Source: Anaerococcus sp. Marseille-Q5996
GTDB lineage: Bacteria > Bacillota > Clostridia > Tissierellales > Peptoniphilaceae
Direction of reading: 5' to 3'
Length of the DNA: 64,000 nucleotides
NCBI RefSeq assembly: GCF_946893725.1
Contig: NZ_CAMPPE010000002.1
Location: 1 to 64,000, forward strand
Shown: piece by piece, positions 5,272 to 45,225 of the stretch
Layout: each line of letters starts with the position of its first letter
Numbering within the stretch: position 1 is the stretch's first letter
The notes under the pieces: generated by a model
What the model saw: the letters and a program-made list of their open reading frames with translations, nothing else
What the model was told of the DNA's origin: nothing
Database searches by the model: none
Made by a program: the position numbers and the translations under genes

Positions 5272-5358
5272 AAATCCTCCAATACATAGACCATACCCGA
5301 TATTACTTTAAATTTTCTATATAACTGATATAGTATAAGTAACAATTAAATATTACTT

Positions 5359-5431
5359 TTATATTCGGGGTGCCAAGTGCTGAGATTATACCCGCAAACC
5401 TGATAAACATAATAGTTTCGTAGGGAAATAA
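5359..5431 (+). promoter_or_regulatory. TPP riboswitch (THI element)
   Basis: The conserved aptamer blocks appear in order: GGGGTGC (5367-5373), GCTGAGA, ACCCGCAAACCTGAT, then CGTAGGGAA. A P1 helix can be drawn between 5359-5366 (TTATATTC) and 5424-5431 (GGAAATAA) with one mismatch. The plus-strand orientation is followed by an intrinsic terminator (5444) and then the methyltransferase gene. That is the layout of a transcription-attenuating TPP OFF switch. Confidence 0.9.
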
Positions 5432-5443
5432 AAAGGCAATGAC

Positions 5444-32370: not shown

Positions 32371-32398
32371 TTGACATATATTTTTAGGGTGGTATACT
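32371..32398 (+). promoter_or_regulatory. Promoter of the T-box importer operon
   Basis: TTGACA (32371-32376), 16 bases, TATACT (32393-32398). The leader would start about 32405. Confidence 0.75.
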
Positions 32399-32404
32399 TA
32401 TCCT

Positions 32405-32636
32405 ACATGAATAACTAGGAAAAGAAGAGTACATATTTATTTTCAAGTACAGAGAGATTTGTTAGCTGAGAAAAATCCTTGAAGAACTTATGGAAGTGCA
32501 TCTTTGAGTTTCATACCGAAAGTAAAGTAGGCTATGACGTTTGTGCCCGTTAAGCACATTAAGGTTTTAAGATTTTCTTAAAATAAATTAAGGTGGAACC
32601 ACGATAACCTCGTCCTTTTTTGGGCGGGGATTTTTT
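32405..32636 (+). promoter_or_regulatory. T-box leader, specifier read as UGC (cysteine)
   Basis: The stem I AGTA element is at 32428-32431. Flanking helices can be drawn (32421-32425 with 32501-32505; 32432-32435 with 32489-32492), leaving GAAGTGCA on the 3' side of the specifier loop with TGC at 32497-32499. The T-box sequence GGTGGAACCACG is at 32592-32603. Its variable base is A (UGGA), which matches a tRNA with U73, as expected for tRNA-Cys. The overlapping GTG (Val) is excluded because the tRNA-Val in this window has A73. The downstream terminator is at 32608. Confidence 0.82.
32608..32636 (+). terminator. T-box terminator
   Basis: CCTCGTCC-tttttt-GGGCGGGG stem followed by a T-run. The 5' arm directly follows the T-box element, so antiterminator and terminator would be mutually exclusive. 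Confidence 0.85.
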
Positions 32637-32673
32637 ATATTCATGTAATATGTTTAAGAAAGGAATATGTGTA

Positions 32674-32880
32674 TTGAAAAAAATTGCTTTTCTATCACTA
32701 GGATTGGCTATGAGTATAAGCCTTTCTGCCTGTAGTAGCGCCGATGCAGGTACAAATCAAAAGGTTAATGAAAATAGCAAGCAAGAAGAAGTTTTAGTCG
32801 ATGATTTACAAAAAGTTGACTTTATGGATAAAGATTTTGACATGTCACAAATAGAACAACGTAGTTGTTGCGATGAATAA
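32674..32880 (+). CDS. Small lipoprotein ending Cys-Cys-Asp-Glu
   Basis: A 68-residue predicted lipoprotein: signal peptide, lipobox SLSAC with lipidated Cys20, then a short acidic/polar linker and the C-terminus MSQIEQRSCCDE with Cys65-Cys66. The start is TTG 32674, nine bases after AAGGAA. The longer frame from 32620 runs through the T-box terminator and is rejected. I know no named family. First gene of a cysteine-T-box operon, 17 bases before the binding-protein gene. It may be an accessory of the importer, perhaps a thiol or metal carrier (inference). Confidence 0.75.
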   Translation: MKKIAFLSLGLAMSISLSACSSADAGTNQKVNENSKQEEVLVDDLQKVDFMDKDFDMSQIEQRSCCDE

Positions 32881-32897
32881 ATAGGGAGTTTTTAAAT

Positions 32898-33980
32898 ATG
32901 AAAAAAAATAAATTATTAGCAGTACTTTTATTAGGTGGACTTACTTTTGCAGGATGTGGAAATCAAGATGCAAATCAAATAGAAACAAAAACTCAAACAC
33001 AAAATGAAGCTGTAGAAGAAAAAGAAGAAAATACAAATGTGGCTAAGGCAGCAAGTCTTGAAGAAGAACCAAGATATGGTACACCAGTTAAAATTGGTTT
33101 TGATGGTGACTTATGTATAGCTGGTCAAAACTTAGCAGAAATAAATGGTTATTTCAAAGAAGCTGGAGTAGATGTTGAGTTTGTTAACACAAAAAGTGGT
33201 AAAGATGCTCTAAGTAGTGGACAACTTGATGCTATGACAGGAGAATTTGGTGGTTTACTAGTTCCAGCAACAAAAGGATTAAAATATGTTTTCTCAACAG
33301 CATCACACTCAGGATGTAAATCACTATATGTCCTAAAAGATAGCGAATACCAAAATACTTCAGACCTAGTTAAAAAATCTGTAGCAGTAACAAATGGTAT
33401 TGGAAATAGTGGACACAACACACTTTTAAGATTTTTAATCCACGATGATGTAAATCCAGATGATATCAACATCAAACCAGTAGATAGCGCTGCAGTTATC
33501 CAATCACTAGAAAGTGGCGAAATTCAAGGTGCAGTTCTTGATGATCAATTTGCTCAAGAATTCTTACAAAGAGATATTATCAGACCAATTAGATCTCTTA
33601 CAAGTGATGAAGACTTTGGTAAAGAAGTTTGCTGTGTAACTGCATTTAACAAAGAATTCGTAGATAATAACCCAATGCTTGCAGAATTAGTAGCAGAAGC
33701 AATTGAAAAAGGAAACCAATACGCAGCAGAAAATCCAGAAGATGCAATAAAAGTTTTACAAGATAAAAACTTAGCAGAAGGTGATCCAGAAGTAGCAGCT
33801 GATTTATTAAAAGCATATGACTACACACTAACAAACAAAGATGGTGAAGAAACACTTAGAACATACTTTGATGACTACAAAAAATTAAAACTAATCCCAG
33901 AAAACAAAACAACAGATGAATTAATGGAAGAATTCTGGAGACCATTAGGTAATGGAGAAGTAGAAGTAGTTAGAAAATAG
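32898..33980 (+). CDS. ABC importer substrate-binding lipoprotein (NMT1/SsuA-like)
   Basis: A 360-residue lipoprotein (lipobox TFAGC, Cys20) with a periplasmic-binding fold of the NMT1/nitrate-sulfonate-taurine class. Blocks are VKIGFDGDLCIAGQNLAEINGYFKEAGVDVEFV, GQLDAMTGEFGG and NGIGNSGHNTLLRFL. It has several cysteines unusual for an exported protein (GDLCIAG, SGCKSLY, EVCCVTAF). With the T-box above, this points to a sulfur-containing ligand or cysteine precursor (inference). GGGAG precedes the ATG. Confidence 0.85.
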   Translation: MKKNKLLAVLLLGGLTFAGCGNQDANQIETKTQTQNEAVEEKEENTNVAKAASLEEEPRYGTPVKIGFDGDLCIAGQNLAEINGYFKEAGVDVEFVNTKSGKDALSSGQLDAMTGEFGGLLVPATKGLKYVFSTASHSGCKSLYVLKDSEYQNTSDLVKKSVAVTNGIGNSGHNTLLRFLIHDDVNPDDINIKPVDSAAVIQSLESGEIQGAVLDDQFAQEFLQRDIIRPIRSLTSDEDFGKEVCCVTAFNKEFVDNNPMLAELVAEAIEKGNQYAAENPEDAIKVLQDKNLAEGDPEVAADLLKAYDYTLTNKDGEETLRTYFDDYKKLKLIPENKTTDELMEEFWRPLGNGEVEVVRK

Positions 33981-33993
33981 TTAAGGAGAAAAA

Positions 33994-35049
33994 ATGGCAA
34001 TTAATAATGAAAAACCGACTGCCGAAATAAATAAAAGACCAAACTCCACTAGAAACTTAACCCGTGATGAACTTATAAAACTGGAATCTAAACCAAGAAA
34101 TAAAAACAAAGAGCGTTTTAAATTGATATTACCAATAATTGCAGGTATTCTTGCAATTTTGGAATATTTCTTTATGCCAGATTACGATCCTTCAGTAGTA
34201 AAAACAAATCTTTACCCAGGATTTTTGGCAATCCTACTTGCAGTATATATAATCGCCTTACTAATAGGATTAAAAAATGAAAAAGTAAGAGATAGGCTCT
34301 TATACAAATCAAACTTTTATACTTTTGTATTTGTAGTATTAATCTTATATGATATTGCAACTCTTAAAACAGGAAAATTAGACTTGCCATATTTCCCATG
34401 GCTTGATATGATTTTTAATTCGATGAAAGAAGATACAAGCTTCTTGGCAGATTCTGTATTTAGTTCCTTAAAACTACTATTCACAGGTTATATAATAGGA
34501 GCAATACTTGGAATAATTACAGGTATTTTGGCAGGATACTTTGAAAAAGTAAATTACTGGGTAGATCCCTTCTTAAAACTTTTGGGACCAATTCCTACTA
34601 CCACTTGGCTACCAGTTGTAATGGTTCTTGCAATCAACCTTTTCCAAGGAGCGGTATTTATAATTGCCCTTGGAGTTTGGTTTTCAACAACTCTAGCAAC
34701 TATAACAGGTATTAGAAATGTAGAGCCATCTTATTATGAGGCAGCACAAACTCTAGGAGCGACAAATTCGGAACTGGTTCGTAAAATTGCAATAAAATCA
34801 GCAACTCCAAATATTTTCCAAGGGTTAATTGCAGGTATGAGTGCAGCTTGTAATGCGTTAATCGTAGCCGAAATGCTGGGAGTAGAAAGTGGACTTGGTT
34901 GGTATATTACTTGGAAATCCTCATGGGCTGATTATTCAGCAATGTATGGTGCGATTATTTTACTAGCCCTAACATTTATCCTTGTAAATATAATTATCAA
35001 AAAAATAAGCAATAGAGCTTTAAAATGGAAAGTTGGTGGTGTAAGATGA
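33994..35049 (+). CDS. ABC importer permease (SsuC/TauC-like)
   Basis: A 351-residue permease. An N-terminal extension of ~50 charged residues precedes a helix pair. The BPD_transp_1 domain follows (about 150-345), with the EAA loop EPSYYEAAQTLGATNSELVRKIA. AAGGAG precedes the ATG. It overlaps the ATPase gene by four bases (ATGA). Partner of the upstream binding protein. The ligand is unknown, probably organosulfur by regulation. Confidence 0.88.
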   Translation: MAINNEKPTAEINKRPNSTRNLTRDELIKLESKPRNKNKERFKLILPIIAGILAILEYFFMPDYDPSVVKTNLYPGFLAILLAVYIIALLIGLKNEKVRDRLLYKSNFYTFVFVVLILYDIATLKTGKLDLPYFPWLDMIFNSMKEDTSFLADSVFSSLKLLFTGYIIGAILGIITGILAGYFEKVNYWVDPFLKLLGPIPTTTWLPVVMVLAINLFQGAVFIIALGVWFSTTLATITGIRNVEPSYYEAAQTLGATNSELVRKIAIKSATPNIFQGLIAGMSAACNALIVAEMLGVESGLGWYITWKSSWADYSAMYGAIILLALTFILVNIIIKKISNRALKWKVGGVR

Positions 35050-35792
35050 GTAAATTAGAATTTAATAATGTATCAAAATCTTTTATAAGATCAGATAGTA
35101 ATAGCATCACAAACGCCCTAGATGACATAAATTTTGAAATCCATGATGGTGAATTTGTAAGTATAGTTGGGCCTTCTGGTTGTGGTAAATCAACTATTTT
35201 AAGATTGATAGCAGGATTAATTTTCCCAACCACAGGAGAAATATTATTAGATGATAAGGAAATTGTAGGTCCTTCTAGCGAGAGGGGAATGGTATTTCAA
35301 AAATCAACCCTATTTCCATGGCTGACAGTGGGTGAGAATGTAGGATTTTCTGGCGAATTAAAAAATAAAGAAAAAATAAGCCAAGAAATAATTGAAAATA
35401 TGCTAAACAAGGTTGGGCTATTGGATTTTAAAAATTCATATCCATCAAACCTATCAGGTGGCATGGCTCAAAGGGTTTCCTTAATTAGAACTTTAATAAA
35501 TAAACCTGAAGTTCTATTGCTAGATGAGCCACTTGGAGCCTTAGATGCCTTTACCAGAATGAATATGCAAGATGAAATTTTAAAATTATGGAATGAAGAA
35601 AAAAATATGACAATAATGGTAACCCACGATGTTGACGAAGCAGTTTATATGTCAACAAAAGTTATTGTCATGGAACCTCGCCCAGGCAGGGTTAAAAAAA
35701 TAGTTCCAATTGATTTAGAATATCCTAGAAAAAGAACTAGCAAGGAATTTACTGATTATAGAAATGAATTGTTAGAAACACTTGATATATAA
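35046..35792 (+). CDS. ABC importer ATP-binding protein (SsuB/TauB-like)
   Basis: A 248-residue ATPase with Walker A GPSGCGKST, Q-loop FQKSTLFPW, signature LSGGMAQR, Walker B VLLLDEPLGALD and H-loop TVTHDVDEAVY-like (MVTHDVDEAVYMS). ATG 35046 overlaps the permease stop. The longer frame from 35025 is rejected. Last gene of the T-box operon, before a terminator. Confidence 0.92.
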   Translation: MSKLEFNNVSKSFIRSDSNSITNALDDINFEIHDGEFVSIVGPSGCGKSTILRLIAGLIFPTTGEILLDDKEIVGPSSERGMVFQKSTLFPWLTVGENVGFSGELKNKEKISQEIIENMLNKVGLLDFKNSYPSNLSGGMAQRVSLIRTLINKPEVLLLDEPLGALDAFTRMNMQDEILKLWNEEKNMTIMVTHDVDEAVYMSTKVIVMEPRPGRVKKIVPIDLEYPRKRTSKEFTDYRNELLETLDI

Positions 35793-45035: not shown

Positions 45036-45225
45036 AAGTAAATATGAGCGATGATAAGACTTAGTAACTATTATAAAGCCTTTAGAGAGAAGATGGTTGG
45101 TGAAAATCTTTGGTGGTTAGTAGTGAATCTACCTTTAGCTTTTTAAATTTGAGTATGTAAGCAAACATAAAAATTGGGTGGCACCACGAGACCTTCGTCC
45201 CATGTAGGATGATGGTCTATTTTTA
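45036..45225 (+). promoter_or_regulatory. T-box leader of serS, specifier UCU
   Basis: Stem I AGTA is at 45063-45066, with the following ACTA (45067-45070) pairing with TAGT (45121-45124). The 3' side of the specifier loop reads GAATCTAC with TCT (Ser) at 45128-45130. The T-box GGGTGGCACCACG is at 45176-45188. UGGC pairs with G73 of tRNA-Ser. The terminator is at 45189-45225. Both specifier and discriminator agree with serS. Confidence 0.88.
45189..45225 (+). terminator. serS T-box terminator
   Basis: AGACCTTCGTCC pairs with GGATGATGGTCT (one mismatch), followed by ATTTTT. It is adjacent to the T-box element. Confidence 0.8.

Follow-up and report, generated by a model that had tools for sequence, protein, structure and literature searches.

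Within its first 64,000 nucleotides, here called the window, the contig NZ_CAMPPE010000002.1 of Anaerococcus sp. Marseille-Q5996 (RefSeq assembly GCF_946893725.1) carries an operon for an importer of the ATP-binding cassette (ABC) type, which lies behind a T-box leader RNA with a cysteine codon in its specifier position. Control of this importer by cysteine starvation, which an initial annotation made from the sequence alone had proposed, is well supported by the sequence and by comparison: the T-box itself, a UGC codon in 15 of 15 leaders, the discriminator bases of the tRNAs and seven other leaders of the same genome with cognate codons all speak for it. The T-box is an independent, genome-encoded statement of the purpose of the importer, namely cysteine supply, and a sulfur or thiol compound is the natural inference for its substrate.

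A T-box leader with a cysteine specifier

The leader matches the T-box covariance model RF00230 over model positions 1–219 of 219 with 120.1 bits (gathering score 93, E 4.9e-26), so it is as complete as the initial annotation had described it, and terminator and antiterminator structures are predicted in this region. Placement of the specifier by a covariance model had been named beforehand as a test of the cysteine reading, and the alignment put UGC and no other codon in the specifier columns, preceded by GAA-N and followed by A. The T-box sequence UGGA matches U73 of tRNA-Cys, as had been claimed, since the tRNA-Cys(GCA) of this genome has the 3' end TCCA. An overlapping valine codon (GUG) had been excluded by the discriminator, and we also rejected it: the tRNA-Val(UAC) of the genome ends in ACCA and has A73, the T-box of its valS leader is UGGU as against UGGA in the cysteine-type leader, and the base preceding UGC is G in 11 leaders and A in four, so that the valine frame is not conserved. 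Because U73 is also present in the tRNA-Gly and one tRNA-Thr of this genome, UGGA excludes valine but is insufficient for cysteine on its own; it is the codon and the discriminator jointly that assign the predicted specificity to cysteine.

The other T-boxes of the genome provided an internal control. RF00230 has 11 matches in it (five above the gathering score and six below, one weak), and ten leaders besides that of the importer were aligned to the model, nine reported at E ≤1e-5 and the tyrS leader not. All seven of those with a clear gene have the cognate codon in the specifier columns (AGA for argG, GUU for valS, UCU for serS, ACC for thrS, UUC for pheS, AUC for ileS and AUG for a MetE-like gene), while the specifiers of two further leaders are AAA and AUG, and the genes behind them, for an amino-acid ABC protein and an amidohydrolase, are too unspecific for a codon check. 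The alignment has a one-base deletion before the codon in the serS leader and a one-base insertion in the thrS leader; a simple rule of GAA, one base and then the codon would misread both, and it was rejected in favor of the model columns. The fourth T-box base fits the discriminators of Val, Met, Phe and Tyr (U/A73), Ser (C/G73) and Thr (A/U73). The argG leader is a misfit, its fourth base being U yet the single Arg tRNA inspected having G73, and the antiterminator of ileS was left unaligned by the model, with GUGGA standing in its place. The serS leader is a second T-box within the window (45042–45205, specifier UCU, 91.8 bits against the gathering score of 93).

In the orthologous operons, L043–L056, an RF00230 match lies immediately upstream in 14 of 14 cases, and UGC and UGGA are invariant in the 15-leader alignment that these form with the window. 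We also ran a pattern for cysteine-type leaders, TGCA followed by GGTGGAAYCACG at T-box distance, over 31 Anaerococcus genomes. It matched 17 of them including G013, where the match was discounted after inspection as the leader precedes thrS. The orthologous binding protein occurs in exactly the 16 genomes that remain, and by this pattern the leader is absent from the other 15, G013 among them (Fisher p = 3e-9, uncorrected for kinship). G020 is a seventeenth genome with a relative of the binding protein, a paralogue only; G026 has its leader on one small contig and its binding protein on another.

Conserved cysteines and a small lipoprotein

Downstream of the T-box the genes follow in the order lipoprotein, binding protein, permease and ATPase that the initial annotation had given (Table 1), and the binding protein is of the NMT1/SsuA type it had recognized, with the motifs GDLCIAG, SGCKS and EVCCVT. 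This protein matches PF09084 (NMT1/THI5-like) with 57.4 bits, above the gathering score of 20.5, and its top NCBIfam match is SsuA_fam TIGR01728, where 69.7 bits fall below the cut-off of 163.5. Relatives were found in 26 of 130 genomes of the family and at 43 loci in a named collection, with taxa that include Ezakiella, Parvimonas, Vagococcus, Schnuerera, Pyramidobacter, Fretibacterium and other Synergistaceae, Intestinirhabdus, Coprococcus, Olsenella and Oribacterium. The clade alignment consisted of the window sequence and 37 of the 43 loci, the six omitted being fragments and near duplicates. C73 (codon 33114–33116), C140 (33315–33317) and the pair C245-C246 (33630–33635) are invariant in 38 of 38 sequences, at 32–79% identity to the window, and make up four of the 17 invariant columns. 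Judged by this alignment the cysteines are not incidental and mark the whole binding-protein clade.

A confident AlphaFold model of the binding protein, with a fold like those of SsuA and Thi5, has a mean pLDDT of 85.7, with at least 85 in each ten-residue block from residue 51, and the best solved structures found by Foldseek include Thi5, SsuA, TauA and DszB. In a pairwise alignment with TauA, C245 and C246 pair with the L and D in PTLDVW and S142 with the E in GNSE; counted along the chain with the published numbers, these TauA residues are Leu204, Asp205 and Glu106. Asp205 and Glu106 are given as taurine-binding residues of TauA in PMC6906117. C246 is aligned with the first of these ligands and C140 lies near S142, the equivalent of the second, while C73 is outside the HMMER alignment, where the first helix behind strand 1 starts in the AlphaFold model, and would lie near the loop of TauA Gln30. 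The four sulfurs are likely to come together in the cleft, and the placement of C246 and C140 at or beside TauA ligand sites would suit a thiol or a metal better as a ligand than an ordinary sulfonate. A further cysteine is found in the permease, where C286 is Cys in all 38 permeases with a residue at that position (39 were aligned).

Two peculiarities of individual binding proteins were seen. That of Intestinirhabdus alba (L109, 5821–6912) has a Tat-like signal, SRREVLK, recognized by eye, as if it were exported folded or ligand-bound, and at L056 (G023:C7:566579–567638) the gene is split in two frames by mutation or sequencing error.

The first gene of the operon encodes the small lipoprotein reported by the initial annotation, with a lipobox at Cys20 and the C-terminus SCCDE, in which Cys65-Cys66 are encoded at 32866–32871. 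Its conservation upstream of homologous importers, a check proposed with the annotation, held for part of the genus only: strong matches (E ≤2.7e-27) occur in ten of the 130 family genomes, each directly upstream of the binding protein. An intact gene is present in nine of the 15 T-box operons, the products of L043 and L056 being identical; Tyr replaces the lipobox Cys at L050, the gene is broken at L051 and there is no gene at L052–L055. Since it is absent or broken in five of 15 operons, and a sixth is without the lipobox cysteine, the lipoprotein is accessory in the sense that it is not a required importer part. The lipobox cysteine is kept in nine of ten homologues (signal peptide and lipobox were judged by eye). 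An alignment of nine sequences, with L050 in and the duplicate product out, has seven invariant columns, which include F50, D52, F55, S64, C65 and C66, and some of the lipoproteins have His-rich linkers. Over the last 24 codons five comparisons with the window gave a dN of 0.03 to 0.21, with a dS of 0.88 in one comparison and saturation in four, across only about ten synonymous sites. By these comparisons the tail is under purifying selection, and the gene is real, selected and optional; it is genus-restricted within the genomes searched.

Matches to the lipoprotein at E ≤0.01 occur in 126 of 130 genomes, but apart from the ten strong ones they were dropped from the count; most of the weak matches listed span the signal-peptide end, roughly from position 1 to 40–60 of the 74 in the model. 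Matches of the 68-residue protein to sorting-nexin, PG1828 and other small-lipoprotein models were likewise rejected, as they are far below cut-off and mostly at the signal-peptide end.

Table 1. Leader and operon features in window coordinates
Feature	Position	Strand	Basis and remarks
Putative sigma-70-like promoter	32371..32398	+	TTGACA, 16-nt spacer, TATACT, TG ahead of -10; consensus match only
T-box leader RNA	32408..32620	+	RF00230, 120.1 bits
Specifier codon UGC (Cys)	32497..32499	+	covariance alignment; invariant in 15/15 leaders
T-box UGGA	32594..32597	+	complementary to UCCA end of tRNA-Cys
Predicted intrinsic terminator, competitor of antiterminator	32608..32639	+	hairpin 32608–32629 plus T run; -14.4 kcal/mol
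68-aa lipoprotein	32674..32880	+	TTG start; lipobox LSAC, Cys20; acidic motif and SCC tail conserved
Substrate-binding lipoprotein, SsuA/NMT1/TauA-type	32898..33980	+	invariant C73, C140, C245-C246
ABC permease	33994..35049	+	invariant C286; PF00528 domain from residue 173
ABC ATPase	35046..35792	+	start in open reading frame list 35025; ATG at 35046 preferred

The promoter candidate matches 11 of 12 consensus positions; it is one of the two top-scoring candidates and is correctly positioned for the leader, in a region with 24 promoter-like matches where shuffled sequences lead one to expect 17.9. Elsewhere in the window a TPP riboswitch was found at 5356–5443 (55.5 bits, slightly above the gathering score).

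Proposed function and its alternatives

When cysteine is low, uncharged tRNA-Cys would bind the leader by pairing of its anticodon with UGC, and its free UCCA end would pair with UGGA, so that the antiterminator is stabilized and transcription enters the operon. The binding protein, with four cysteines that the TauA alignment would place at the ligand cleft, could capture a small, soft, thiol-reactive sulfur compound by thiolate contacts, and candidates for this cargo include cystine, another disulfide, a sulfane-sulfur species or a metal-thiolate of cysteine. The invariant cysteine of the permease may help to hand the cargo on, which would then feed the cysteine supply directly or via CysK. 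In this genome cysK (388 bits, above cut-off) is adjoined by a cysE-like gene (207.1 bits against a cut-off of 210.65), so the need could be covered by sulfide as well as by cysteine. The short lipoprotein would be an optional tethered arm, and at the cell surface its SCC tail may either trap the ligand or maintain the pocket cysteines in the reduced state. For this reading as a whole, an importer of a thiol-reactive sulfur compound that is induced by cysteine starvation and has a cysteine-lined pocket and an optional lipoprotein arm, we judge the chances to be about even. A more general reading is offered tentatively, as possible rather than probable: that the importer class defined by GxxC...GC...CC and the permease cysteine takes up thiol-reactive sulfur or metal-thiolate compounds by thiolate coordination or transient covalent capture, with tRNA-Cys control and a tethered Cys-Cys relay arm in Anaerococcus. 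Such an arm may be likened to MerA, which passes its ligand on through a C-terminal Cys pair. The pointer to cysteine supply given by the T-box makes the substrate of the widespread four-cysteine clade directly testable.

Several observations weigh against a sulfur importer of this kind. The clade is wide, and by the comparisons made here the cysteine link is supported for Anaerococcus only. In 18 loci outside this genus no T-box was found upstream of the transporter; 16 of these (L093–L098, L100, L101, L104, L106, L107, L108, L112, L118, L120 and L124) were rescanned at E ≤0.001, because so many of the T-boxes of our own genome (6 of 11) lie under the gathering score, and for the other two (L059 and L061) the scan used the gathering score as its threshold; the sequence available before the permease is shorter than 900 bases in L094, L098 and L112. 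The sole T-box in the 16 rescanned loci, that of L097, lies downstream of the transporter, as do those of the Anaerococcus paralogue loci L103 and L105. The genome of the window also has a paralogous importer that keeps the four cysteines and has no T-box upstream. In addition, the four cysteines could instead form structural disulfides, and the neighbors of the importer in other taxa include anaerobic reductases rather than cysteine genes.

The paralogous operon (G000:C6:53190–54179; locus L042, 6351–3397, minus strand) comprises a binding protein, permease and ATPase, and the T-box near it lies after the operon, before argG.

The four-cysteine clade spans several phyla and in some of them is found near anaerobic reductases, which raises the alternative that the importer supplies the substrate of such an enzyme, a double-cubane cluster protein or a molybdopterin enzyme, and that cysteine control in Anaerococcus is secondary. 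Among 33 loci searched by tblastn, nine have a PF06050 (double-cubane type) gene after the transporter, and in three of these an AhpD-like gene is interposed. Seven of the nine are from Synergistaceae (Fretibacterium in two cases), the others from Parvimonas and an unclassified Firmicute. A single Synergistaceae copy was tested and exceeds the cut-off of the double-cubane model NF040772 (491.8 bits against 350), and a match above the same cut-off lies at the site of the Parvimonas copy. In Ezakiella (L096) and Parvimonas (L106) the binding protein has a molybdopterin oxidoreductase as its direct neighbor, DUF4418 and MacB/FtsX genes lie close to the importer in Ezakiella and Coprococcus, GcvH-like and radical SAM genes precede the operon in four loci and AhpD-like genes are beside it in four. 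Such neighbors may indicate that the cargo undergoes anaerobic redox chemistry. The co-occurrence is weak, however, as double-cubane genes are present in 16 of the 26 family genomes with the binding protein and in 43 of the 104 without it (p = 0.08), which leaves the double-cubane reductase unsupported as an obligate partner. The copy in our own genome is on another contig (L201, G000:C5:93000–105000), together with a likely activator and in what by eye looks like a selenium/proline locus, and nine of the 16 genomes with a cysteine T-box importer have no reductase match at E ≤1e-60. We therefore regard supply of a reductase as improbable.

A rival that is unlikely, though less so, is an importer of thiophilic metals or organometals resembling the Sec-assisted organometallic (SAO) system, with the cysteine pocket and the CC tail as binding sites for a metal or metalloid; on this account the T-box would report the loss of free cysteine caused by the ligand, or the ligand would be imported as a cysteine complex. 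SaoP and SaoA are the best NCBIfam matches of the permease and ATPase, and among those of the binding protein SaoX ranks second behind SsuA_fam. SaoX scores above cut-off in eight of 398 genomes, and the seven sequences aligned have a Cys in the first cleft loop (7/7), at 246 (7/7) and at 245 (6/7, the seventh having HC). Eight permeases beside SaoX, taken as SaoP and unscored, carry Sec or Cys immediately ahead of AEF, five residues beyond the C286 position when aligned by eye; a small protein ending in Cys-Cys-COOH belongs to SAO as described in PMC13188914, and the His-rich linkers of some lipoproteins would also suit a metal. All three scores are far under the curated cut-offs, though (SaoX NF040735, 57.5 against 300; SaoP NF040733, 93.6 against 295; SaoA NF040729, 258 against 360), and SAO membership was rejected for this reason. 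SaoB, SaoC, SaoT and SaoL were not recognized by eye beside the operon (the genome was not searched with those models), the lipoprotein gave no SaoC match in NCBIfam at E ≤1, the SGCKS cysteine, C140, is missing in the aligned SaoX sequences, and a cysteine T-box indicates nutrition rather than metal stress. All four cysteines are present in three of 12 weaker matches to the SaoX model, so the signature extends beyond the 43-locus set. An ordinary sulfonate importer of the SsuA/TauA type, serving sulfur supply and with merely structural cysteines, would agree with the top NCBIfam match and with a fold like those of SsuA and TauA, but we consider it quite unlikely: the score is under the SsuA_fam cut-off, the TauA ligands Asp205 and Glu106 are replaced by Cys246 and Ser142 in the alignment, four cysteines that stay invariant over such a range of identities would be unexpected as structural residues in a thiol-reducing anaerobe, and the operon contains no desulfonating monooxygenase, an enzyme type that needs oxygen. 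It is scarcely credible that the small reading frame is a cysteine-codon leader peptide that acts by ribosome stalling; its TGT-TGC codons do lie close to the stop, 17 nt ahead of the next start codon, but nine of ten homologues have a signal peptide and lipobox cysteine, the dN of the tail is far under its dS (on few synonymous sites) and cysteine sensing is already covered by the T-box.

Some further features were seen near these loci. The four operons preceded by GcvH-like and radical SAM genes, L110, L111, L115 and L117, are from Synergistaceae, and the radical SAM gene of L111 has no NCBIfam match at E ≤1e-10. DUF4418 proteins at L093, L095 and L118 carry a Cys/Met/His-rich stretch. The neighbors at L201 resemble, by eye, SelD, a YedF/TusA-like protein, a cysteine desulfurase, SelA and proline racemase, which hints at a connection to selenium use. 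In Tissierellia bacterium KA00581 a skipping-rope RNA (RF02924, 63.6 bits) lies downstream of the importer at L108 9057–9136.

Relation to known systems

If the importer does take up a thiol-reactive sulfur compound under cysteine control, a binding protein that holds its ligand with four conserved thiols would be an unusual one, with consequences for the related SAO selenoprotein system. In titles and abstract beginnings from the literature we found no description of a four-cysteine importer class, of a T-box-controlled SsuA-type importer or of a cysteine T-box in Anaerococcus. The regulatory principle is already known, and going by the sequences compared here the unexplained part is the cysteine-lined importer clade with its optional SCC lipoprotein. 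Clostridium perfringens has cysteine T-boxes on cysKE, cysP1, cysP2 and ubiG, and cysP1 and cysP2 belong to a T-box gene set derepressed 7 to 15.5-fold under cysteine limitation (PMC2940859); the terms "ABC transporter" and "sulfonate" are absent from the main text of that paper. In Lactobacillus paracasei a cysteine T-box is described on an amino-acid ABC permease (PMC6004538). The Anaerococcus leader resembles those of the clostridial regulons in its TGC specifier, its predicted terminator and antiterminator and its predicted control of a transporter under cysteine depletion, but the operon behind it is a full SsuA-type ABC operon to which a lipoprotein is added.

TauABC and SsuABC (TIGR01728, PF09084) have the same fold, operon composition and sulfur theme, whereas the Anaerococcus protein is under the TIGR01728 cut-off, has Cys in place of TauA Asp205 and possesses the four invariant cysteines. 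The top Foldseek match of the binding protein is yeast Thi5, the HMP synthase, whose motif is named CCCFC. Our A2 profile aligns its own CC with the CC of Candida Thi13/Thi5 in a weak local alignment (domain bits 17.4), but Thi5 is a self-consuming enzyme and not a binding protein. The SAO system (SaoX, SaoP, SaoA and SaoC) provides best or second-best NCBIfam matches, a CC dyad in the binding protein, Sec or Cys in the same permease stretch and a small CC-ended protein, and differs in the sub-cut-off scores, the missing C140 of SaoX and the cysteine T-box found in Anaerococcus. The precise roles of the SAO system still need investigation according to the review PMC13188914, and on the sequences compared here the importer and SAO appear to be cousins whose thiols sit at different positions.

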